A DNA stretch of 21,023 nt, from IMG/VR virus record IMGVR_UViG_3300042868_013743, positions 1 to 21,023 of that record. One strand, 5' to 3'. Position numbers and translations under genes: made by a program. The notes below the pieces were generated by a model. That model had not been told where the DNA came from. It made no database searches and saw only the letters and a list, made by a program, of their open reading frames with translations. Positions within the stretch are counted from its first letter, which is position 1. Each line of letters begins with the position of its first letter. This DNA is from a virus. Positions 5,308-21,023 of this stretch are shown piece by piece.

Positions 5308-6663
5308 TTAAAGTTTTTTAATTCGTATTTTAGCTATTGTTGATTCAGTGAATTTATCATTTCCCGTAATTTTTGGAGCAATTTCAACACTAAGATTTTT
5401 CATTAAATTTGTTTCTTTATTTAATAATTTACAAACAATTGCTTTTTTACCGCCAAGTGTTGGAAACCCTATTATAATAGTGCCTTTATCTCTAGCACTT
5501 CTTCTGATTGTGGTTTCACCTTCAAAATTACTTTTACCTAAAAGACCCTGTATTTGTTTAAAAATTCTTTCTTGTTCAGGAGATAAATTGCTATCATCAA
5601 GAACCAAACTTAATCCACCAACATTTACTGTAGGTGGGATTTGACCTACTTTTGCTTTTGGTAAATTATTAAAATTACCGTCCCATTTTGTTTGACCCTT
5701 TTGTGATTGATTTACTTTATTCACATAATTATTTTTTTCTTCACCAGCTCTAGCTTTTGCCTTAGGACCCAAAACAATTGTTTGTACATAAATTTGACCA
5801 ATGTAATCTTTCTCAACCGTCATTTTAGTTGGGTCTTTTGAGTTATCTTCCTCACCCTCACCCTCATCTTCATCGTCTTCTTTAATTAAAATAACTTTTT
5901 TAGCTATTTGATTAATATAAGACTCTAACGTATTTTTACGTTTTTCTTTTGGAAATAATTCTGGAGCAGCAAGTCTTCTATTATTATATGTAAATTTGAA
6001 AAATCCGGCTAAATCATTAAATAATTGTTCTTTATTATTTTTACCCCCTTCTGTTCCCTCACCTTCTGTTTCCTCACCTTTTGTTTCTCCACTTTTGTTT
6101 TTTTTATCCTCTTCACTTTCTACCCCACCTTTTTCTTTTTCTTTATTTGCTTCATCAACAAGTTCTTTAGCGTGATCGAATTGTATTGAATAGTACTTAC
6201 CTTCTTCTTTACCATCTTCAGAAACTAAAGCCATAACTTTATTACTTTTACCAATGATTGGTTCTTTTGTACCTGGTAGTTGTGTAATTAATTCTTCCTC
6301 TTTTGTAAAAATCATTTTAAACAATACACCTTCATTAGTCTTAACCTCCAAAGTCAAAGGGTTTTTTTCAACCACACGAGCCAAAGTTTCAAATGGGTGT
6401 GGTACTGGTAAAGTAAGTCCTTGAGGATTATCTGGGATTTGTAGTAAAAAATCAAACTTAAAAGGTTCTATAGCTAATTGGTCTATTGTGTTGATAGAAT
6501 CCAATCCAGGTATATCAGTTATTTGTAATCTAGCTAACCTGTCCTTTGCTTTAGCAATACCACCTTCAGCTTTAGCAATATCTTGAGCTGCTTTATCACC
6601 AGAGATAGGAGCTTCTTTTAGAAGTTTTTTAAAGTTATTGTTGTTTAATAAAATTACTGACAT
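5308..6663 (-). CDS. Unknown structural-type protein upstream of tape measure
   Basis: I do not recognise a family. The frame is open from ATG 6720, but I choose ATG 6663 (MSVILLNNNNFKKLLKEAP, 451 aa) because a late-promoter box (6680-6687) and the terminator of the preceding gene (6697-6721) lie inside the longer version. The N-terminal helix ends in LLKE-A, an L-x-E motif shared with other proteins here. Residues 60-175 are mixed alpha/beta. Residues 175-208 are a Glu/Lys/Gly-rich low-complexity linker (KGEETEGEGTEGG). Residues 209-237 (core LFNDLAGFFKFTYNN) are nearly identical to a segment of the 831-aa protein at 11232-13727. An acidic patch (KEDDEDEGEGEED) precedes a more globular C-terminus. 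Its place beside the tape measure suggests a tail or baseplate role. Confidence 0.82.
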   Translation of the reverse strand: MSVILLNNNNFKKLLKEAPISGDKAAQDIAKAEGGIAKAKDRLARLQITDIPGLDSINTIDQLAIEPFKFDFLLQIPDNPQGLTLPVPHPFETLARVVEKNPLTLEVKTNEGVLFKMIFTKEEELITQLPGTKEPIIGKSNKVMALVSEDGKEEGKYYSIQFDHAKELVDEANKEKEKGGVESEEDKKNKSGETKGEETEGEGTEGGKNNKEQLFNDLAGFFKFTYNNRRLAAPELFPKEKRKNTLESYINQIAKKVILIKEDDEDEGEGEEDNSKDPTKMTVEKDYIGQIYVQTIVLGPKAKARAGEEKNNYVNKVNQSQKGQTKWDGNFNNLPKAKVGQIPPTVNVGGLSLVLDDSNLSPEQERIFKQIQGLLGKSNFEGETTIRRSARDKGTIIIGFPTLGGKKAIVCKLLNKETNLMKNLSVEIAPKITGNDKFTESTIAKIRIKKL

Positions 6664-6679
6664 TGAAAAATGTTTATTT

Positions 6680-6687
6680 ATAAATAT
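6680..6687 (-). promoter_or_regulatory. Late-promoter box ATATTTAT
   Basis: The coding strand reads TGATATTTATAAATAAAC, 16 bases before ATG 6663 and just after the terminator of the upstream unit. This copy also contains TATAAATA in the coding orientation, the classic T4 late box. It decides the start of the 451-aa protein. Confidence 0.62.
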
Positions 6688-6696
6688 CAAGTAAAT

Positions 6697-6721
6697 AAAA
6701 AATGGGGCTATTAACCCCATT
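6697..6721 (-). terminator. Rho-independent terminator of the gp26-like unit
   Basis: On the minus strand a 7-bp stem (AATGGGG/CCCCATT) with a 7-base loop is followed by a run of six T. It begins three bases after the stop of the +1-frame ORF at 6725, which supports that small ORF as the true last gene of the unit. Confidence 0.8.
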
Positions 6722-6724
6722 TAA

Positions 6725-6865
6725 TTATCTTCTTTTTGATTTTGCTTTATCGTATTCTTTTTTCTGGTCTTCAAGTTCTTTTTGCCATAAATCAAGATAA
6801 ATACGTCTTTCCCATACTGGCATATTTTGAACTGATTCATAAGAAAATCTCATATGTTTTACCAT
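6725..6865 (-). CDS. Small tail-assembly partner ORF, possibly frameshift-fused to the gp26-like protein
   Basis: From ATG 6865 this frame gives 46 residues (MVKHMRFSYESVQNMPVWER then RIYLDLWQKELEDQKKEYDK and AKSKRR). The same frame stays open upstream, back to and past the T7 run at 6914-6920, so a frameshift there would give a 62-residue extension on the gp26-like protein (about 312 aa in all). A hydrophobic helix, then F-x-Y-x-x-V-x-x-(M/L)-P-(V)-x-x-R-R and a charged coiled coil, is the type of small domain I recall after tail chaperone/gp26-like genes in other large phages, where it is expressed separately or by frameshift. That likeness is from memory. The ORF stops just before a terminator, with no gap. 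Independent initiation at 6865 (or 6853) is possible; no Shine-Dalgarno is seen. Confidence 0.75.
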   Translation of the reverse strand: MVKHMRFSYESVQNMPVWERRIYLDLWQKELEDQKKEYDKAKSKRR

Positions 6866-6893
6866 ATAGTAGATTTCTCTTTTAATACTTAAA

Positions 6894-7664
6894 TTATAAT
6901 CTGACGTTAGGCCAAAAAAAGTTGAGTCCGAGGGTAACTGGAGCTTGAAATGTACCTGTCGGTCCCTCCACTTCGGCCGACATATCTATACCTGGTTCAA
7001 TTGAGTCAGAATATTCTCTGAATTTAAGGGAATCAAAAGCTGGCATCACATTAACAAATTGTTGGATGTAGTTAATATCTCTATTACCATCAACTTCTTT
7101 AATCTGAGCTTGTAGTCTATAAGTTAAAGCGTTTGAAATTTGAGATTTTGTTGCTTTCTCATATTTTTCAGACCTACTAACAATAGATTTTTCATCACCA
7201 ACGGTTAAAAGTCTAAATTTAATTTTCTTTTTACATTTTGGTAATAAGAAAGAAAATTCTCCTTTTTCATCTGGTTCGACACCTTCTGGTAGTTCTTTTG
7301 TTTTTAAAGTAGATAAATCTATTTCAGTTTCAAATTCAACACCACTTGTCGGGTCAGTTAATTTAACAGGATACATTTCACCGTAACCTGTAGCACGTAA
7401 CCAAATCATGATTGCGTTTCTATCACCAACTAATAATTCTTCAAAAGGTACTGGGGATTCTTTAACTTTTCTTTCCAATAAAACATCAAGAACTTTCCCA
7501 CTTTTAATTAAATTGGGTGATGTTAAAATATTTTCATCCATTGCGGTCATATATTCCACTTTTACAGCACCTTGTTGTCCAGGGTATAAAAGACCTCTAG
7601 ATGGCAAAGGAATAACATCGAATGGGGCTTGAAATTGAATTTCTTGTGTTTGTTGTTTTGACAT
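6894..7664 (-). CDS. gp26: gp26-like baseplate hub / tail assembly protein
   Basis: This 256-residue protein looks like the T4 gp26 baseplate family: LPSRGLLYPGQQG near residues 17-29, then VEYMTAMDENILTSP, a helical LLVGDRNAIMIWLRATGYGE segment and a beta-rich middle with a charged KCKKKIKFRLLTVGDE strand. In T4, gp26 belongs to the baseplate hub; relatives in other phages act as tail assembly chaperones near the tape measure, which is two genes downstream here. The C-terminus (LGLNFFWPNVRL) is encoded across a run of seven T; slipping one base there replaces the last six residues by a 62-residue charged extension. It shares a terminator with the small ORF. Only a one-mismatch promoter box is seen 74 bases upstream (7739-7746). 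The family assignment is from recalled motifs. Confidence 0.8.
   Translation of the reverse strand: MSKQQTQEIQFQAPFDVIPLPSRGLLYPGQQGAVKVEYMTAMDENILTSPNLIKSGKVLDVLLERKVKESPVPFEELLVGDRNAIMIWLRATGYGEMYPVKLTDPTSGVEFETEIDLSTLKTKELPEGVEPDEKGEFSFLLPKCKKKIKFRLLTVGDEKSIVSRSEKYEKATKSQISNALTYRLQAQIKEVDGNRDINYIQQFVNVMPAFDSLKFREYSDSIEPGIDMSAEVEGPTGTFQAPVTLGLNFFWPNVRL
6914..6920 (-). other. Possible programmed frameshift site (T7 run)
   Basis: On the coding strand the zero frame reads AAC TTT TTT TGG, and seven T in a row lie 18 bases before the stop of the gp26-like gene. Moving to the +1 (equivalently -2) frame after the Phe codons gives GGC CTA ACG and an open frame of 62 codons that includes the MPVWERR motif. 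The -1 frame meets a stop almost at once. A frameshift at this point is a known device for tail-assembly proteins of long-tailed phages; its use here is inferred. Confidence 0.5.
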
Positions 7665-8824: not shown

Positions 8825-9304
8825 TTAATTAGGTTCTTTTAACCTAACACCGTATTCAACACCACCCTTATCAAAATAAGAGATTTCAACATTTTCAAGA
8901 TGAGCGGGATAATCAGAACCAAAGATAAAATCGGACATATCTTTTGGTGTACCGTAAGCCTCTTCATCATCAAAAGAACCTAAAGCCAAACCAGTACTTT
9001 TAGCTAATGCTGACACATCTTTCCATCTACTATAATCACGATTGTCTAATAAAACCAAATAAAATTTACAAACATTAACAAAGGTTTCAAAAGACCTTGG
9101 GTTTTCCATATTAAAAACAAATTCTTCTCTAAGATAAGCATCACTGTAGTCCCAACTAGTTTTCATAACAAAAAGATTTGATTTTGCTGGTCTATTTATT
9201 GGGTTTAACGCAACCTCAAATGGTAAATCTACACCACTAAACTGATTAGATAAATCATCCAACCAATCAGATTCTCTTAGTATTTTTTTTATTAAAGGTT
9301 TCAT
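8825..9304 (-). CDS. Unknown 159-aa protein with MKxLIxKIL N-terminus
   Basis: I do not recognise a family. The N-terminus MKPLIKKILRES is close to that of its upstream neighbour (MKNLIRKILKEE) although the rest is unrelated, which suggests a shared targeting or docking tag; L-R-E before S fits an L-x-E cleavage pattern. The remainder is an acidic, soluble alpha/beta protein (pattern SFETFVNVCKFYLVLLDNRD, then DDEEAYGTPKDMSDFIFGSD). The start codon lies 38 bases inside the upstream gene, so translation is probably coupled. It ends at the bidirectional hairpin 8797-8823. Confidence 0.78.
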   Translation of the reverse strand: MKPLIKKILRESDWLDDLSNQFSGVDLPFEVALNPINRPAKSNLFVMKTSWDYSDAYLREEFVFNMENPRSFETFVNVCKFYLVLLDNRDYSRWKDVSALAKSTGLALGSFDDEEAYGTPKDMSDFIFGSDYPAHLENVEISYFDKGGVEYGVRLKEPN

Positions 9305-9743
9305 TTAACTGACTTTCTAATTCTTCTATTCTATCTTTTAATTCTTGGATTTCTTCTTGTGCTGACTCTCTACCCTCTTCTCGACCTTCTTCACGTGCTT
9401 CTTCTTTTTCCCTATCCGCTTCTTGATAATAAACATAATCATCACAACAACCATCACAATCACAAGAATCACGACCAGATTCATAACCAGACTCACGAGC
9501 ATCTTCGTAAACACGATCTACTTCATTATACAACTCATCACCAATTTCCATTAATTTATTAATATCTCTAATACCAGCATCAACTATCATATCATAAATG
9601 TTAATAGCATCAAAATTAAAATTACGTTCTATTTGAATGAAAGGTTTTTTGACAATTTTTTCGGCCTCAGAAGTATCAAAACCACGAGCCCATTCAAACT
9701 CGTCTTGTTCTTCTTTTAATATTTTACGGATAAGGTTTTTCAT
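9267..9743 (-). CDS. Unknown coiled-coil protein with Cys cluster
   Basis: This 158-residue protein begins MKNLIRKILKEEQDEF, the helix shared with the next gene. Residues about 80-105 have an Asp/Cys-rich cluster (SCDCDGCCDD) that could bind metal. Residues 105-150 are a highly charged coiled coil with near-repeats (EEGREEGRESAQEEIQELKD). No family is recognised. The last 38 bases overlap the next gene. A late-promoter box lies 6 bases before the start and coincides with the last codons of the upstream homing endonuclease. Confidence 0.75.
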   Translation of the reverse strand: MKNLIRKILKEEQDEFEWARGFDTSEAEKIVKKPFIQIERNFNFDAINIYDMIVDAGIRDINKLMEIGDELYNEVDRVYEDARESGYESGRDSCDCDGCCDDYVYYQEADREKEEAREEGREEGRESAQEEIQELKDRIEELESQLNETFNKKNTKRI

Positions 9744-9747
9744 TTTA

Positions 9748-10614
9748 TTATAAATATTCAGATAATTTGGATTTTACAGAATCAATTGAATCATTTATAT
9801 CTTTTTCCCAAAATCTTAAAAGCGGGATGTTATTTTCTTTTGCGATTATATTTTTACGTTCATCATTTTCTTTAACAAACTTTTGAATTTCATGGATTGC
9901 CTCAGGATGAACATCGGGATTACAATGAAACCAATCACCATCAACCTCAATTAAAATATTATGTTTGGGAATATAGAAGTCGTATAGATAACCATTTAAA
10001 GGATGTTGATTAATAAATTGAATATTAAGTTCGGTTAATAAATCCTCAAACTTTTGTTCTAGTTTGGATTTTTTGTTAATTTGTTTGGTTCTTAAATATT
10101 CAACTTGATCTAATCTTCTTTGTTCGCGATTCTCAGGTTTGGACCAATACTCCAACATACCCTTATTTAATTTTTCCAAAACTTTTTTTGGTCTTTTACG
10201 ACCTTTTAAAGCTTTGGATATTTTTTCAGAACGTTCTTTATTGTCAGAAATTTTTTGACCATAACCCAAACGGTCATCAACTTCTTTGGTTAGACCTTTG
10301 TTCCATATAACTAAGTCACCATTTTGGTGCATTTTTTTTTGAGTTTCGTGTGCTTTATCATTAGCTTTTTTATTATGACCCCAATTATTGTGAACCCTCG
10401 ATATATGACCGTGAATATATTCTCTAAAGCCTTCATAAATACCTAAATATTTTGGTCTTTCACCACAACCACAGGCACAAGTTGGTGGTATTCCATTTAA
10501 GAAGTATTCGATATAAACATCTTCAGCTTTCATTTTATGTTTTAAACGACAATGAGCCGATAACCCCTGTGGGTTTGTTAATTCTTGATTACAAATTTTA
10601 CAAATGTGTTGCAT
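9748..10614 (-). CDS. Free-standing homing endonuclease, Vsr-like (PD-(D/E)XK) with zinc finger
   Basis: This 288-residue protein starts with a C2H2 zinc finger (C5, C8, H21, H26), then a second Cys group (CACGCGE, 46-52), then a NUMOD-like DNA-binding segment (WNKGLTKEVDDRLGYGQKIS, about 104-123, followed by a SEKISKALKGRKRP helix). The C-terminal 100 residues are a Vsr/DUF559-like nuclease: E187, D212 (YDFYIP), E223-x-D225 (LIEVDGDWFH) and a closing LLRFWEKDI strand. Such genes spread by cutting phage lacking them. It stands between the tail tube gene and the 158-aa gene. Its ATG directly follows the tube gene's terminator, and its final codons double as the promoter box of the next gene, a neat insertion that should leave neighbours functional. 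Confidence 0.88.
   Translation of the reverse strand: MQHICKICNQELTNPQGLSAHCRLKHKMKAEDVYIEYFLNGIPPTCACGCGERPKYLGIYEGFREYIHGHISRVHNNWGHNKKANDKAHETQKKMHQNGDLVIWNKGLTKEVDDRLGYGQKISDNKERSEKISKALKGRKRPKKVLEKLNKGMLEYWSKPENREQRRLDQVEYLRTKQINKKSKLEQKFEDLLTELNIQFINQHPLNGYLYDFYIPKHNILIEVDGDWFHCNPDVHPEAIHEIQKFVKENDERKNIIAKENNIPLLRFWEKDINDSIDSVKSKLSEYL
9750..9757 (-). promoter_or_regulatory. Late-promoter box ATATTTAT inside the endonuclease 3' end
   Basis: The coding strand reads TGAATATTTATAATAAAATG: the box is made of the Glu-Tyr-Leu-stop codons of the homing endonuclease and lies 6 bases before ATG 9743. The leader would be extremely short. Confidence 0.5.
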
Positions 10615-10679: not shown

Positions 10680-11168
10680 TTAAAATACGTGGATAGCGCG
10701 GTCAAATCTTAACGTGCCGGTAATCTCAGCAATATCAGAAGATGAATAATCTAATGAACCAAAATCAACGTTTGTTAACATTGTACCTTGAAGAATCCAT
10801 TTTTCAATTACAACACCTGTTGGGTCAAGTAATTCTAATTCAATATCTTTCTTATAACCTGCTGCGTAACCTTGACGACCTGTTACAGATTCAGAGTGAA
10901 GACGTACCCACTCCATTAAAGCTTGTGCCGCTGAAGGACCAATTGGGTCACGGAATGTAACGTCAATAGTATCCCAAGTAAAACGACCAATTACCCATGT
11001 TGAAGTATTTAAGAATTGAATCTCAGTTTCTTCTTGAGAAATTTTTGGTCTTGATGAAGATTTCACAAACCATTCTTGAATTCCTAATGGTGAAGGGAAT
11101 CTAAGGATAAATCTATTTTGTTTTTTCGGTTCGTAAGGAATCGGCATCCTCATTAATAAATCTGCCAT
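10680..11168 (-). CDS. gp19: Tail tube protein, T4 gp19-like
   Basis: This 162-residue protein has the features of the gp19 tail tube family, the subunit that stacks into the inner tube through which DNA passes: KKQNRFILRFPSPLGIQEWF (15-34), SSRPKIS (38-44), WDTIDVTFRDPIGPSA (65-80), GYKKDIELELLDPTGVVIEKW (104-124), and the closing VDFGSLDYSSSDIAEITGTL then RFDRAI. Its length matches T4 gp19 (163 aa). It is a cytoplasmic assembly protein without signal peptide or membrane segment. A late-promoter box lies 35 bases upstream and a strong terminator follows, so it forms its own high-output unit. In T4 it sits next to the sheath gene; here it lies about 6.6 kb away. Confidence 0.95.
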   Translation of the reverse strand: MADLLMRMPIPYEPKKQNRFILRFPSPLGIQEWFVKSSSRPKISQEETEIQFLNTSTWVIGRFTWDTIDVTFRDPIGPSAAQALMEWVRLHSESVTGRQGYAAGYKKDIELELLDPTGVVIEKWILQGTMLTNVDFGSLDYSSSDIAEITGTLRFDRAIHVF

Positions 11169-13727: not shown

Positions 13728-13758
13728 TTGACAATTATTTTTATTATAAATATCTTTA
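13727..13758 (+). promoter_or_regulatory. Possible Bacteroidota-type promoter for clpP
   Basis: TTTG (13727-13730), then 20 bases, then TATCTTTA (13751-13758), one mismatch from TAnnTTTG, and a leader of about 15-20 bases before ATG 13781. It overlaps the minus-strand late box. Confidence 0.35.
13746..13753 (-). promoter_or_regulatory. Late-promoter box ATATTTAT in divergent gap
   Basis: The coding strand reads AAGATATTTATAATAAAAATAA, 18 bases before ATG 13727. Read on the plus strand the same bases are TATAAATA, so this site could in principle serve the divergent clpP gene as a T4-type late box. Confidence 0.58.
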
Positions 13759-15468: not shown

Positions 15469-16152
15469 TTATTTTTTATATGTGTAATTTGATAGTTTAT
15501 TGAATCTTGCCAACTCTTCGTTGATTAAAGATTTATTAGACGAAATATTTTCTTCCATAATTTCTTTAATTTTAGAAACTAATTCATCTTCAGTATATTC
15601 TTCTGGGTTATTTTTTACCTTTAATTGTAAAAGTTGTAGTTTAGAAGATTGTTCTTTTGATAAGTCTTCTTTTTTAGGATATTCTTTTCCAGACTTTTTA
15701 ACTGTCTCTAAAGCTTCTTTAAATTTAGATTCATTCATAATTTCTTTAATTTTAGAAATTAATTCATCTTCAGAATGTTCATCTGACCTTAACTTTAAAA
15801 GTTGTAATTTAGATTTTTGTTTTTCAGATGGCTTAGGTAATTTTTCACCGTCATTATCTTTCTTTATTTTTTCTAAAGCTTTTTCAAACTTAGATTCATT
15901 CATAATTTTTTTAATTTTAGAAACTAACTCTTCTTCAGAATATTCATTTGGATTAACTTTTACTTTTAATCTTAAAGCTTGTAATTTAGACTTTTGTTCT
16001 TCAGATTGTTTAGGAAGTTTTTCACCATCATTATCTTTCTTCATTTTTTCTAAAGCTTTTTCAAACTTAGATTCTTCATTTATTATACCAGCCTTTTCTA
16101 AAGTACTTTCGATAAGTACATCAAGGTCTTTCTTTTTAACTATTTTTGACAT
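15469..16152 (-). CDS. Unknown protein built of three tandem helical repeats
   Basis: The 227-residue protein consists of a short N-terminal helix (MSKIVKKKDLDVLIESTLEK), three repeats (27-85, 86-140, 141-200) and a tail. Each repeat follows ESKFxxALExxKK, then a Lys/Pro-rich loop, then SKLQ(A/L)LxLKV, then (S/T)E(E/D)ELxSKIKxIM. This looks like a helical-bundle repeat with high charge. No family is recognised. It has its own late-promoter box 15 bases upstream and precedes the 201-aa gene in one unit. An overlapping plus-strand frame of similar length mirrors the repeats and is a shadow. Confidence 0.8.
   Translation of the reverse strand: MSKIVKKKDLDVLIESTLEKAGIINEESKFEKALEKMKKDNDGEKLPKQSEEQKSKLQALRLKVKVNPNEYSEEELVSKIKKIMNESKFEKALEKIKKDNDGEKLPKPSEKQKSKLQLLKLRSDEHSEDELISKIKEIMNESKFKEALETVKKSGKEYPKKEDLSKEQSSKLQLLQLKVKNNPEEYTEDELVSKIKEIMEENISSNKSLINEELARFNKLSNYTYKK
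15553..16074 (-). repeat. Three tandem repeats of about 165-180 bases
   Basis: In-frame units encode residues 27-85, 86-140 and 141-200 of the 227-aa protein. Units 1 and 2 share long runs (coding for KFEKALE and KKDNDGEKLPK); unit 3 has diverged more. The unit length varies (59, 55 and 60 codons) because of the loop. Confidence 0.82.
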
Positions 16153-16192: not shown

Positions 16193-17674
16193 TTATTTTT
16201 TATATAAAAATTTCATGTTACCACAATCCCATATCCTATCAAAACCACGTTCTTGCATAATTTCCCATTCTGTTTTATTTGAGTCAAACCCTTCTGACAC
16301 TAACTTTGATTTTCTAAAGTTAAAACGATGGTATCTTTTAATTTGGGAAGAGGGTTTAAAATACCAATAATTAGGATTGGATAGACCGGCAAACCTCATA
16401 CCACATTTATGGTAAACAGTTTTTTCATGATTTAACCCAGACCATCTACAATCTGAATAAGTCATAAAAGTTTTTATATTTGTATTTTTTAAAATATAAG
16501 ACAATAACTTATTAAAGCCACCCCTAACCGAGTGGTAATTTTTATTACAAAACCTAATCAACTCCCAATTAGAATCTTTTGAACCAGTTATTTTTCTTTT
16601 ACCGAAAGTCATTAAAGAAACTAATTCTTCTTTATAAAAAAGACCGTATCTAATAGTATCTTTTGAATCACCCTGAAGATGATTTTCTTCTAAGAATTTA
16701 GATTTAGTACTACTTGTTATTTCTTTTACAGAACATTTTCTGGCATCAATTTTTATGTCGTTTAATTGTAGTTCATTGGAAAGTTTAGATAAAATAATTT
16801 TTTTTTGATTTAATATTTCATCCTCAAGTATTTGTATCAACTTGGTACCCACTTTTTCAGCCATTTTAGATTTATTTACATGATAGTTTTTATCTTTACC
16901 ATTTAACTCACTATGATAATAAAGGCCGTTAACTTCTATACCTAAATTATAATCTGGTAGAAAAAAATCTATCTCATATGGTGAAATAATTTTTCTATTG
17001 TTTTGAATATATTTTATATTTTTTTGATTTAAAAATTCTTGAATAAATAACTGTGGTTTAGAATCTTTCTGTGATGGATGACATTTACTACATCTTGGTA
17101 TGATACCACACCCTAATAAAGTACTTGTAAATTTATGATCACAAACTGAACACTCAAATTCATATGACAGTGATGTGTTACCATTTTTATTTGTCATATA
17201 ATTAGAGAGTAATTTTAAATTATTGGATTCTAATTTTGGTATTAATTTTGATAAAGTTTTTTTACGAACAGTTTCCTTCTGCTTTTCAACAACCAATCCC
17301 ATGTCCCGACTATTAATTGTTTTTTGATGTATATCTTTTATATGCCAAATATGATTAACACCATATTTTTCTTGTACAGTTTTTTTAATAGAGCTTAATC
17401 TTTTTTCTTTAACACTATCTTTTTCACCCCATACTAATCTACATTCGTCCGAACAAATTTCTTTGGAGTGTTTTTTCTTAACCTCAAACTCTTTATTACA
17501 AACTTTACATTCTCTAACTTCTCTAATGGTTTCATCTTTTTTTCGGCCCATTTTTGTCTTACCGTTTCTAACGTCTTCAAAATAACAATCCCTAGAACAA
17601 AATTTTTTATCTCTAAATTTAAATTCGGTTTCAAAAGGTTTATTACAACATTGACATGTTAACTCTATTTTCAT
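16193..17674 (-). CDS. Free-standing homing endonuclease, Vsr-like with C-terminal GNAT-like domain
   Basis: I choose ATG 17674 (MKIELTCQCCNKPFE, 493 aa) over ATG 17728, whose extra 18 residues are encoded by terminator and promoter-like DNA. The order is: zinc-binding Cys pairs at 7-10 and 26-30 (CQCC, CSRDC), 57-60 and 74-78 (CKVC, CSDEC), a linker, another zinc site at 175-198 (CSVC ... CSKC), then a Vsr/DUF559-like nuclease (about 206-300) with E234, D236 (YEIDFFLPDY), E247 (IEVNG) and H254, and finally a 180-residue domain (NHLQGDSKDTIRYGLFYKEE, SLMTFGKRK, ELIRFCNKN, TYSDCRWSG, YHKCGMRFAG) that I know from other phage endonucleases and which resembles a GNAT fold. It sits between the sheath gene and the repeat protein, just after the sheath terminator. 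Confidence 0.88.
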   Translation of the reverse strand: MKIELTCQCCNKPFETEFKFRDKKFCSRDCYFEDVRNGKTKMGRKKDETIREVRECKVCNKEFEVKKKHSKEICSDECRLVWGEKDSVKEKRLSSIKKTVQEKYGVNHIWHIKDIHQKTINSRDMGLVVEKQKETVRKKTLSKLIPKLESNNLKLLSNYMTNKNGNTSLSYEFECSVCDHKFTSTLLGCGIIPRCSKCHPSQKDSKPQLFIQEFLNQKNIKYIQNNRKIISPYEIDFFLPDYNLGIEVNGLYYHSELNGKDKNYHVNKSKMAEKVGTKLIQILEDEILNQKKIILSKLSNELQLNDIKIDARKCSVKEITSSTKSKFLEENHLQGDSKDTIRYGLFYKEELVSLMTFGKRKITGSKDSNWELIRFCNKNYHSVRGGFNKLLSYILKNTNIKTFMTYSDCRWSGLNHEKTVYHKCGMRFAGLSNPNYWYFKPSSQIKRYHRFNFRKSKLVSEGFDSNKTEWEIMQERGFDRIWDCGNMKFLYKK

Positions 17675-17707
17675 GGTAAAATATTTATATAAGTTATTCC
17701 TACATAT

Positions 17708-17715
17708 ATAAATAG
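17708..17715 (-). promoter_or_regulatory. Late-promoter-like box CTATTTAT
   Basis: The coding strand reads AACTATTTATATATGTAGG, one mismatch from ATATTTAT, 33 bases before ATG 17674 and just after the sheath terminator. Confidence 0.4.
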
Positions 17716-17726
17716 TTATTAAAAAC

Positions 17727-17756
17727 AAAAAAGTCCACCGAAGTGGACTTTTTATT
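17727..17756 (-). terminator. Terminator of tail sheath gene
   Basis: AAGTCCAC-CGAA-GTGGACTT: an 8-bp perfect stem with a tetraloop, flanked by an A run and a T run. On the minus strand it lies 14 bases after the sheath stop and reads into TTTTTTG. It could also work in the plus direction. Confidence 0.87.
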
Positions 17757-17769
17757 TATTATTTAAAGA

Positions 17770-20700
17770 TTAAACATTATCAAAAGATGCTCCTGTAGGA
17801 GTAACATTGAACTCGATAATAATGTATTCTAAGGTAGGTATTGGTTTTAAGAATATCTTACCTCTCATTTCATTTCTGTCGATTTCTTCAGGGTCATTAG
17901 ATAACTGAACTCTAAAATCAGCTAAACCTCTTTCTTTTCTAATATTATCTAAGATTGGGTTAACTAAGTTTAAGAATTGGTTTCTTACGATTTGGTCATT
18001 TTGTTCAAATAACAATCTAATACCAACCGCTGTAATTAATTTACGAGCTTGTAACAACAATCTTCTAATATTAAGTCTGTCAAGAACAGAATCTTTAACT
18101 TGTAAGTTTTTGTTACCCCAAATTACAACACCAACATCAGTGAAAGTTGCCATTGGATTAACACGTCCTTCGTAAAGAGTATCTCTATCATCTTCAGTAA
18201 GTTTGATACGAGCTTGAAGAGCGTTTGTTAAACCTCTAGTGTAACCAGCTACTGCGTACCATGGGAAAGCTACGTTATCTGTTAAAGCGATGTTACGACA
18301 AACTTCAAGAGTTGCTGGTAACCAAACGTTAACATTATTTTCAGTATCTCTTTCTTGAATCCATGGCCAATATGTGGCGGTGTAGTTAGAATCAATGTCC
18401 GCTGCGTCTAACAAATCAACTAAAGATTCTGCGTCGTTAATTGACACGGAGTTAAATCCAAAACCAACTGTATCATCAGATGTATCATAAGTTACATTCT
18501 CTGGTGAAGTTAAGATATAAACAGAGTCAGCTCTTTGTTCTTCAACCATGTCAATAGTTTCTTGAACTAAATAAGCGTTATCACCGTAATCAATACCAGG
18601 TGTTGCTAACACGTTAATGTTAACAGCCTCAGGATTAGCAAAAGTTTTAATAGCGTTAAAATAAGCGTACAAGTCAGAAGTACCGTCTTGAGGCCCAAGT
18701 TGGATAAATTGTCCGTTGGCTAAACCAGCTGTAAATCCAGCTTTACCTACACGGTATCTATCAGTATTAGTTCTAGATCTTCTGTGACAATCCCAACCAT
18801 CAAAACCAAAGTAAGGTACTAATGTAAACTTTCTAGCTACCGCACTTTCATAAGTAGTACCTTGAATAGATAATACATCGGTGAAACCAAATTGACCAAC
18901 AGAGAAGTTACCTGCTATTGTTGCTCCACTATCCATGTGGAAACCTTTAGTTGTTGCCGTCCAATAAGTATCGTTTTCAGTTAAACCTTTCCATTGGAAC
19001 ATGTCCGAATCGATTCCTTTTGTGTTACTAATACCTAAATAAACTTTTTTAAGTCTTTCATTTGTAAGGTCGTAAGAAGTTTTATAGTCAATAAAAGGCG
19101 GTATGTATAAAACATCCGTTGCTGAAGTAACAGTGTTACCAAAATAATCTCTAACAATATAACCTTCAAAACCGGCCGGGAAAGAGTCGGTAGGTGCGTT
19201 CTCATTCATAACCATCATAATAAATCTACTATTTAATGTAAATTCACCATCGGCAGTACCAATTCTTCTTGCTATGTAATTGTTAGAACTAACATCCAAA
19301 TTACATTTAGGGTAACTTTCAAGTATTGAAGGGTTAGCGTCAGTATCATTCCACTGTCTAACTATTACATCAAATTGTTTGTTATCAAGGTCAATGTTTT
19401 GAATTGAAATTTTAATTTCAGTGTTAGCAGCTGTACCATCAGATATTGAAATAAATTTAAATAATTTAATTACTTCATTACCACGAAGTTCAGATACTAC
19501 CCAAGGAGTTTCAGGTGTTTGATATTGTTGTTTGTAGTTTTCAATATTATCCATATAAACTAATTCTTGTTTTAAACCAAGAATATAGTCATTGTCTAAT
19601 AAGTCTTGTAACATGTTAGGATAAATTTCTTCTACATAAACTCTAGTTCCTCTATCGTGACAATCTTCACCTAACACACCTGTTATGTAGTTTCTATTAT
19701 TTCTATCTAAAGAAACATCGTATACCGAGACGGCTGATAAAGATATATCTGTATAAGCTGATAAACTAAATTGAGCTAAAGGATTAGTTAAAGTTGGAGT
19801 CAATCCACCAATTAAACCTGTAGCACCACCTTGGTAAGTAGACCAATATAATACATCATTTATGTAATTAGCTCTAGACCTTAAAACGGCTAAAACCATA
19901 CCTTCATATTGTGTATAAGCACTAGCACTGTAAGTTACTACTGTACCCGATACTATACCACTTAAAGAAGCACCTGATATAAAAGTTATTGTTGCTGAAA
20001 CACCAGTAAAATTAGTACCAACAGTCCTGTCAAAAACAATACCTTGTGGGTATGTTGTTGTTACTCCAGGAATAGAAGCGGTAGTTAAAGTTGGTCCATT
20101 AGGGAACAATCCTAAGTTGTATAAATACTGTGCATTAGCATCACTAATATTAGAATAAGATGAACCAGTAAAAGAGGCTGTAAAAGGTGTACCAACAATT
20201 AAAGTACTACCAGAAACACAGTCAATTGATGTAACAGTGATTAATAAATCTGATGTTGTGTTACCAATAGAAGAACCTGAAATTGTTAAAGTATCTCCAG
20301 TTAAATAACCTGTACCTGCTACAGAAATTGTAACTGCGGTAACAGCACTAAAAGAATCAACAGTTACGTCGAAAGAGGCTGCGGAACCACTACCACCAGT
20401 TGCTGTAATACCTGTGTAAGTACCAGGAGTACCACCACTGACACTAGTAAAAGATATTGTTAAAATTTGTCCTAAACAGTTGTAGATATTATTACTTGAA
20501 GTAACAATTGTTGAAGGATCATAATTTGCTCTTGAAACTATGGCCCAACCAGAACCGGCATCAAAGCCAGTTAAACCTAATGTTCTAGTTACAAATAACT
20601 GATTTGATTCAGTTAGATAACTTTTAGCTATGTAAGGTAATTCATACTTTGGTTTATCGTTACCAAATTTTACGGGACTCAAACCACCAAATATTGTCAA

Positions 20701-20862
20701 AAACTCATCATAGTTTGTGATAAAAATCGGTTCGAAAGCGGGTCCTTTAAGAGTTTCACCTGCCAAACCCAAGGTTGTTACACCTACTTGTTGTGCTACA
20801 AAGGTTAAATCTTTCTCTGAAGTAAAGACACCTGGTGATACAAATATTTTTTGTGAAGCCAT
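17770..20862 (-). CDS. gp18: Contractile tail sheath protein, T4 gp18-like, with beta-rich insertion
   Basis: This 1030-residue protein is the sheath subunit that forms hexameric rings around the tube and contracts at infection. Family marks: the N-terminus QKIFVSPGVFTSEKDLTFVA, FITNYDEFLTIFG (47-59), YLTESNQLFVTRTLG (82-96), and a conserved C-terminal third (WIQERDTENNVNVWLPAT, then VGVVIWGNKNLQ, LNIRRLLLQARKLI, LLFEQND, closing YIIIEFNVTPTG). T4 gp18 is 659 residues, so this one is much enlarged. Residues about 120-316 look like an insertion: Ser/Thr/Gly-rich strands, with GTYTGITATGGSGSAASFDV then TVDSFSAVTAVTISVAGTGY and TGDTLTISG at 148-196, a motif common in decorating domains of other phage structural proteins. 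It is a single-gene unit with a late box 33 bases upstream and a terminator after it. Confidence 0.95.
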   Translation of the reverse strand: MASQKIFVSPGVFTSEKDLTFVAQQVGVTTLGLAGETLKGPAFEPIFITNYDEFLTIFGGLSPVKFGNDKPKYELPYIAKSYLTESNQLFVTRTLGLTGFDAGSGWAIVSRANYDPSTIVTSSNNIYNCLGQILTISFTSVSGGTPGTYTGITATGGSGSAASFDVTVDSFSAVTAVTISVAGTGYLTGDTLTISGSSIGNTTSDLLITVTSIDCVSGSTLIVGTPFTASFTGSSYSNISDANAQYLYNLGLFPNGPTLTTASIPGVTTTYPQGIVFDRTVGTNFTGVSATITFISGASLSGIVSGTVVTYSASAYTQYEGMVLAVLRSRANYINDVLYWSTYQGGATGLIGGLTPTLTNPLAQFSLSAYTDISLSAVSVYDVSLDRNNRNYITGVLGEDCHDRGTRVYVEEIYPNMLQDLLDNDYILGLKQELVYMDNIENYKQQYQTPETPWVVSELRGNEVIKLFKFISISDGTAANTEIKISIQNIDLDNKQFDVIVRQWNDTDANPSILESYPKCNLDVSSNNYIARRIGTADGEFTLNSRFIMMVMNENAPTDSFPAGFEGYIVRDYFGNTVTSATDVLYIPPFIDYKTSYDLTNERLKKVYLGISNTKGIDSDMFQWKGLTENDTYWTATTKGFHMDSGATIAGNFSVGQFGFTDVLSIQGTTYESAVARKFTLVPYFGFDGWDCHRRSRTNTDRYRVGKAGFTAGLANGQFIQLGPQDGTSDLYAYFNAIKTFANPEAVNINVLATPGIDYGDNAYLVQETIDMVEEQRADSVYILTSPENVTYDTSDDTVGFGFNSVSINDAESLVDLLDAADIDSNYTATYWPWIQERDTENNVNVWLPATLEVCRNIALTDNVAFPWYAVAGYTRGLTNALQARIKLTEDDRDTLYEGRVNPMATFTDVGVVIWGNKNLQVKDSVLDRLNIRRLLLQARKLITAVGIRLLFEQNDQIVRNQFLNLVNPILDNIRKERGLADFRVQLSNDPEEIDRNEMRGKIFLKPIPTLEYIIIEFNVTPTGASFDNV

Positions 20863-20895: not shown

Positions 20896-20903
20896 ATAAA
20901 TAT
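20896..20903 (-). promoter_or_regulatory. Late-promoter box ATATTTAT for tail sheath
   Basis: The coding strand reads GACAATATTTATATTAAAAATAAC, 33 bases before ATG 20862. Confidence 0.6.
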
Positions 20904-20951
20904 TGTCAGTTTTTTCAAAAGTTTTTTAAAGTAAAGAATAAATAAGTATTA

Positions 20952-20990
20952 GTATGACTAGTGTAATACTTTTGTATGACTAGTGTAATA
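20952..20990. repeat. Two 17-base direct repeats in the divergent gap
   Basis: GTATGACTAGTGTAATA occurs at 20952-20968 and 20974-20990, 22 bases apart (two DNA turns). Each copy carries the palindrome ACTAGT. The first copy also overlaps an inverted repeat AAGTATTA / TAATACTT (20944-20951 and 20964-20971). A third partial echo (GTAATACTAACACT) follows. The site overlaps the promoter of the gene starting at 21010 and has the look of an operator. Confidence 0.65.
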
Positions 20991-20995
20991 TTTAT
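20988..20995 (+). promoter_or_regulatory. Late-promoter box ATATTTAT on the plus strand
   Basis: The plus strand reads GTAATATTTATGTAATACTAAC, with 14 bases to ATG 21010. It starts in the last bases of the second 17-base repeat. Confidence 0.5.
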
Positions 20996-21009
20996 GTAAT
21001 ACTAACACT

Positions 21010-21023
21010 ATGAAAAGAGATAA
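21010..21023 (+). CDS. Possible start of a plus-strand gene (partial)
   Basis: Only the first codons (MKRD) are inside the window. It is supported by the promoter box and operator-like repeats directly upstream and by the divergent arrangement with the sheath gene. The product cannot be named. Confidence 0.4.

Follow-up and report, generated by a model that had tools for sequence, protein, structure and literature searches.

Here we report that a short array of repeated DNA sites, lying between a small RHH-like gene and a divergent tail-sheath gene, is locked in its spacing to the promoter-like box of the sheath gene, and this locking is the new result of the analysis. The starting material was a virus record of 21,023 bases (the window, that is, the whole stretch of DNA that was analyzed). 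The real unit of the array is a 7-bp half-site on an 11-bp grid, present five times in the window and usually three times in its relatives. The repeats are very probably the docking site of the product of the gene starting at position 21010, and their fixed distance to the sheath promoter suggests that this RHH protein also helps to control tail-sheath production. We put at roughly two in three the probability that the array is the operator of the RHH protein, serving both autorepression and a phase-dependent action on the sheath promoter.

The sheath gene (17770-20862, minus strand) and the ATG at 21010 are separated by 147 bases, which hold both exact copies of the 17-base sequence GTATGACTAGTGTAATA (20952-20968 and 20974-20990, offset 22 bp). 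A sequence-only reading of the window had described these copies, the 8-bp inverted repeat AAGTATTA/TAATACTT (20944-20951 and 20964-20971) overlapping the first of them, and a plus-strand box meeting the second copy ahead of the ATG; all three were found at their places, the box being ATATTTAT at 20988-20995. When extended, the repeat covers 22 nt at 91% identity (20949-20970 and 20971-20992). No further copy of the 17-mer occurs in the window at up to three mismatches, and its own virus record holds the two copies only at up to two mismatches. Repetition by chance was ruled out by a shuffle test, in which 100 shuffles gave 0.11 such matches on average and none gave two. An RNA element was also considered and rejected, since the transcript of 20940-21009 folds no better than shuffled sequences (z -0.28). 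In a scan of IMG/VR the 17-mer was tracked to 11 contigs. It lies between the sheath gene and a short reading frame, upstream of the same gene as in the window, in nine of them, and stands as a single copy in unrelated context in the other two (L090, L092), so that it is not randomly scattered.

On the plus strand the grid reads GTATGAC-TAGT (half-site at 20952-20958, forward), GTAATAC-TTTT (20963-20969, reverse), GTATGAC-TAGT (20974-20980, forward, duplicate of the first), GTAATAT-TTAT (20985-20991, reverse, duplicate of the second) and GTAATAC-TAAC (20996-21002, reverse, with TGTAATACT repeated at 20995-21003); the first two half-sites are also aligned in the relatives. ACTAGT, which had been taken as the centre of the repeated sequence, is present, but it is the junction between two inverted half-sites and not the centre of a site, and the 22-base period is real but is here refined to two 11-bp units. 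Many relatives carry a simple form, forward, reverse, reverse (for example AGTATGA...TCATACTTTTGTCATACTTAT), and a more distant clade carries GGTA...CTACCTTTTTTCTACC on an identical 11-bp grid. The 22-bp repeat of the window is therefore a duplicated forward-reverse pair, by which three half-sites have become five in this lineage. The grid was also recovered by a motif-free test, in which a 6-mer was repeated at lag 11 in 44 of 92 non-redundant upstream regions against 2.8 in shuffles, the next lag being 22 (8/92 against 1.9); 16 loci of this set failed the pattern test, among them L162 and L163, whose array is of the usual kind but lies further upstream. The array thus has several subsites on the same side of the helix, as is typical of RHH operators. 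The earlier description of the repeats as operator-like agrees with this, since, at this spacing, all sites look to the same side of the helix and the family of the likely binder binds DNA as dimers.

Two other features were noted around the array. In L162 and L163 the usual array is followed, before the start of the RHH gene, by an insert made of repeats of about 20 bp (ATCAAATTTACCCCTATAA-like). A hairpin with arms of 10-12 bp, whose sequence varies by locus (e.g. TTATGGAGTAGAATACTCCATAA, TTCCGATGTATATAATACATCGGAA), stands just upstream of the array in L016, L019, L022, L140, L152, L155, L158, L166, L170, L172-L176 and L180; arms of at least 10 were counted in 16 of 92 loci against 0.23 in shuffles, and the hairpin is perhaps a terminator against antisense read-through.

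The gene expected at 21010 does start there (plus strand, 21010-21023) and runs off the window; its full frame of 56 residues, beginning MKRDKNIKITSVTHELLK, was obtained from near-identical contigs (L083-L086, L088, L093). The protein scores weakly but consistently as RHH-like, by sequence profiles and by a structure model. The protein of the window lineage matched PF10723 (RepB-RCR_reg) at 21.3 bits, the cut-off being 21; three other members tested fell below the Pfam cut-off, and a match at E ≤ 0.1 was found in 38 of 42 relatives. PHROG 582, an Arc-like repressor family, was matched at E 1.2e-4. The AlphaFold2 monomer (pLDDT 72) has helices at 11-24 and 28-40 after an extended N terminus, with no strand assigned; the strand of the RHH fold needs the dimer. 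The leading fold matches are mostly RHH proteins (Arc, CopG, ParG, CopASO), with Z up to 5.8, identity of about 15-28% and poor Foldseek E-values (0.23 at best). In the sequence search of solved structures the sole RHH row was SvtR (2kel, E 0.27), the other 27 of the 28 rows being SUMO proteins (best E 9.1e-5), which were taken as chance.

At least 574 relatives of the RHH protein were collected in one IMG/VR scan, and each of 10 longer records has exactly one RHH gene at E ≤ 1. For cultured relatives, the phage collection gave weak matches only, none covering 80% of the RHH query. The RHH proteins (A1, L123-L202) end in a conserved KKDIYGE-like tail, which follows a linker of variable length. 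A nearby virion-type protein (L093, 12480-12998; L203, 7845-8366) carries a similar DDVYGEA or DDIYGEA. When residues of the RHH proteins were compared by eye with the type of half-site, clade was a confounding factor.

The tail block of the window is mostly on the minus strand, with a tail tube gene at 10680-11168 and the sheath gene (PHROG 23, E 1.8e-49), the proposed second target, as the last gene before the right edge. The RHH gene lies beside the sheath gene in 71 of 80 sheath relatives (L003-L082), and the remaining nine hold less than 180 bp upstream of the match. In the reverse direction, a search with the RHH profile left 80 loci, and in 79 of them a divergent sheath gene lies 128-299 bp away; the distance is 2,994 bp in L187. 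In a 130-kb relative (G001) the RHH gene is the lone plus-strand gene within a minus-strand tail block. A sheath relative was seen in two genome records, of which a Prochlorococcus single-cell record has both the gene and the array and a Wolfebacteria bin lacks both. The annotation of the two cultured sheath neighbourhoods examined shows no divergent RHH gene.

Other observations were made within the tail block. A tandem repeat of 177 bp, in 2.2 copies (15707-16079), lies within the minus-strand reading frame 15469-16152; the matching frames are shorter in L093 and G001, and the copy number seems variable. Two endonuclease-like genes lie on the minus strand among the tail genes, one at 9748-10614 with matches to HNH and homing endonucleases, the other at 16193-17728, endonuclease-like by reading only and missing from the matching place in G001. 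Neighbouring proteins (8825-9304 and 9267-9743 in the window; 6159-7077 in G001) open with near-identical peptides (MKPLIKKILRES, MKNLIRKILKEE), as if they shared a common signal.

The sheath gene has its promoter-like box at 20896-20904 (minus strand, AATATTTAT), and this box is kept in the relatives shown; a CAAAAG element about 20 bp from the start of the box (20915-20920) is a possible -35-like part of the same promoter. In the window the AATAC of half-site 2 begins 69 bp from the start of the sheath box at 20896. A gapless alignment of the loci on this box put the array at matching columns in nearly every locus shown. Leave-one-out weight matrices were used to score how far the first reverse half-site stands from the sheath box, and this distance was 68-70 bp in 103 of 110 loci (68 in 4, 69 in 70 and 70 in 29), seven of 117 loci being unscored (L006, L013, L033, L127, L190 and L433 below 10; L222 with no box) and the ATAAATA box being assumed to be rightly chosen. 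The seven exceptions lie at 59 (L157, L184, L186, L187), 60 (L018), 80 (L367) and 91 bp (L012), shifted by 9-11 or 22 bp, i.e. by about whole helical turns. By eye they are true changes of the spacer and not slips of the matrix along the array, save for L012, which has a duplicated unit. Loci fetched later (25 after removal of similar ones) gave 68-70 bp in 22 of 24 with a box, as first scored; L430 has a second ATAAATA in its leader and joins the 68-70 class when the box is corrected.

These loci share ancestry and the counts are not independent events, so more weight is given to how the flanking segments behave by contrast. In 86% of locus pairs the two spacers differ in length by no more than 1 bp, whereas such agreement is reached in 18% on the sheath side and 28% on the RHH side, where the segments vary freely. 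The sequence of the spacer, among 65 loci at 69 or 70 bp, has a mean identity of 44% against 33% expected from composition. With the array at a constant helical distance from its box, the sheath gene is probably a second target.

The array follows the RHH gene in its distribution. At seven sheath loci without an RHH gene and with at least 200 nt upstream, the array is absent in all seven (best matrix score -0.3 or lower), the sheath box is kept in all seven, and CAAAA lies about 20 bp away in six, with CAAAG in L397; L396 and L398, and L427 and L429, look alike over the stretch shown, which leaves fewer independent cases. The array is thus tied to the RHH gene, and the box and CAAAA accompany the sheath gene, which can therefore be expressed without the RHH gene. 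A genome-wide regulon is unsupported, for in G001 near-clade models place the array at this locus only, and the next match of the pair model (14.0 at 67717) is at the level of column-permuted controls (9.9-14.1). The general weight matrix gives the own array of G001 only 5.5 and no place in that genome 10 or more, and so is uninformative for it. In one pattern search all matches with up to two mismatches fell at this locus in 9 of 9 records, and three-mismatch matches were about as many as in a reversed-pattern control. Two more searches gave matches at this locus only (5 of 6 records, and 4 of 7 with a pattern ill-suited to part of the group), and a further one (7 of 9 records) gave matches elsewhere at two mismatches, except one with a single mismatch (G007, 364-379).

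The box of the RHH gene itself, ATATTTAT, overlaps half-site 4, in the fourth 11-mer. Of its 59 occurrences in G001, 51 are found no more than 150 nt ahead of a start on the same strand, mostly at 12-45 nt, and only 20 of 59 occurrences of its reverse complement are so placed; in three records it was found in 43 of 90 upstream regions and its reverse complement in 10 of 90. From position, we infer that the coding-strand ATATTTAT marks promoters of this phage group. T4 late promoters are described as having an 8-bp AT-rich box a short way ahead of structural genes (PMC2988020), of the form TATAAAT (PMC3037559). The box studied here is alike in composition, size and place, but the T4 form is the reverse complement of what the coding strand carries, ATATTTAT/TATTTATA, and TATAAATA was not what the coding strand of the 90 regions favoured. 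Activation of the T4 late genes comes from a sliding clamp without site-specific binding (PMC2988020). The ATATTTAT/TATTTATA box occurs on the coding strand upstream of genes in G001 (L113-L119), in G004 (L120-L122) and in the window, for example at 13746, 16168 and 20896, and may be a late promoter class read by a different factor.

At other loci the box comes after or before the array, or the last half-site (ATACTTAT) is one base off the box, so that the position of the array relative to the RHH gene's own box varies between clades. Where the array overlaps this box, a bound protein should impede the transcription of the gene encoding it. It had been suggested that the gene past the edge may be timed apart from the tail genes; the sequence does not show this, for in the window that gene has the same ATATTTAT box as they do, and the operator would have to be the source of any difference.

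We infer from the layout that RHH dimers bind 7-bp half-sites at 11-bp intervals and come to lie next to each other on the same face of the DNA. The bound protein would overlap its own promoter box and shut off its own gene, and it would act on sheath transcription, in one direction or the other, by touching RNA polymerase or by shaping the DNA. If the sheath box is -10-like, the half-sites of a standard locus would stand at about -65, -77 and -88 of the sheath gene. Targeted upstream activation in E. coli is described as effective from -60 to -100, in narrow windows that recur each 10-11 bp (PMC7113249). A more specific version, held only tentatively and rather doubtful as a whole, is a dual switch in which the protein turns its own gene off and activates or gates the sheath promoter from an array at about -65 to -90, the KKDIYGE-like tail contacting RNA polymerase.

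The simplest rival is that the array controls the RHH gene alone, the fixed spacing coming from overlapping divergent promoters or from slow change. The box of the RHH gene is indeed overlapped or adjoined by the array, RHH proteins such as RelB are commonly autorepressors (PMC2812701), and the seven loci without the gene keep the sheath box. But the flanking segments change length freely and the segment between box and array does not; the spacing is kept both where the RHH box precedes the array, as in the distant clade, and where this box lies within or after the array, as in the window clade and others; and the exceptions are shifted by about whole helical turns. We therefore regard autorepression alone as unlikely.

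Other rivals concern the binder and its purpose. It is very unlikely that a host protein or another phage protein binds the array instead, as the array occurs where the RHH gene does and is missing where the gene is, and a series of sites every 11 bp suits RHH proteins. Repeat arrays that overlap promoters are also bound by RHH partition proteins, as in pSM19035 (PMC9499535), and weak matches to omega (8 of 42 members) and ParG (2 of 42) were obtained, which would fit a partition or DNA-anchoring site with the RHH protein as centromere-binding protein. The arrays are short, however, usually of three half-sites, and no ParA-like AAA_31 gene was found at E ≤ 0.001 in the 10 longer records, some of them possibly incomplete, so that this is more improbable still. 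Least probable of these is a toxin-antitoxin pair with the RHH protein as its antitoxin. The RHH fold and repeat operators are common among antitoxins (PMC2812701), but here the gene is alone, the next downstream gene being convergent and part of the tail block in the two layouts seen (G001 and L093), and the protein has little beyond its RHH part.

The preferred reading, an operator acting on both genes, was compared with the closest known systems. By model comparison the protein has the same small RHH fold as Arc of phage P22 and CopG of plasmids, whose dimers sit side by side on repeated operator sites; the low identity of the fold matches sets it apart, and to our knowledge neither Arc nor CopG lies beside a tail gene. 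SvtR and F55 resemble it as small viral RHH regulators. SvtR, from an archaeal virus, is described as repressing its own gene and binding the promoter of a tail-fibre gene, and F55 as binding two tandem repeats with an 11-base consensus (both PMC5569661). They differ in belonging to archaeal viruses with TATA/BRE promoters, and SvtR has inverted repeats at four genome sites, whereas the window has one array, in fixed phase between the RHH and sheath genes; the similarity in sequence to SvtR is also only that E-value of 0.27.

In geometry the nearest case is p4 of phage phi29, described as binding between promoters, repressing the early ones and activating a late one (PMC3100819). The array lies likewise between divergent predicted promoters and is helically phased with the sheath-side one, a layout which would allow repression and activation from one site. 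The difference is that p4 has its own unrelated fold and works with p6, whereas the model and profiles of the window protein point to RHH and its actions are proposed from the layout; by this analogy it may work like p4 but is not a p4.

The open-access papers searched held no comparable system. If the dual switch is true, one late structural gene in uncultured T4-like phages would have a dedicated, phase-dependent regulator, and a major tail protein would have its dose or timing set in a way that differs from the T4 sliding clamp, by a site-bound regulator in helical phase with the sheath promoter. The RHH gene is widespread, as its many relatives indicate, and the locus would offer a compact two-promoter switch which can be tested in the laboratory. 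The loci also form a natural operator series, in which the half-site shifts from CATAC to CTACC on a constant 11-bp grid, and this series would be useful for studies of how RHH specificity evolves.
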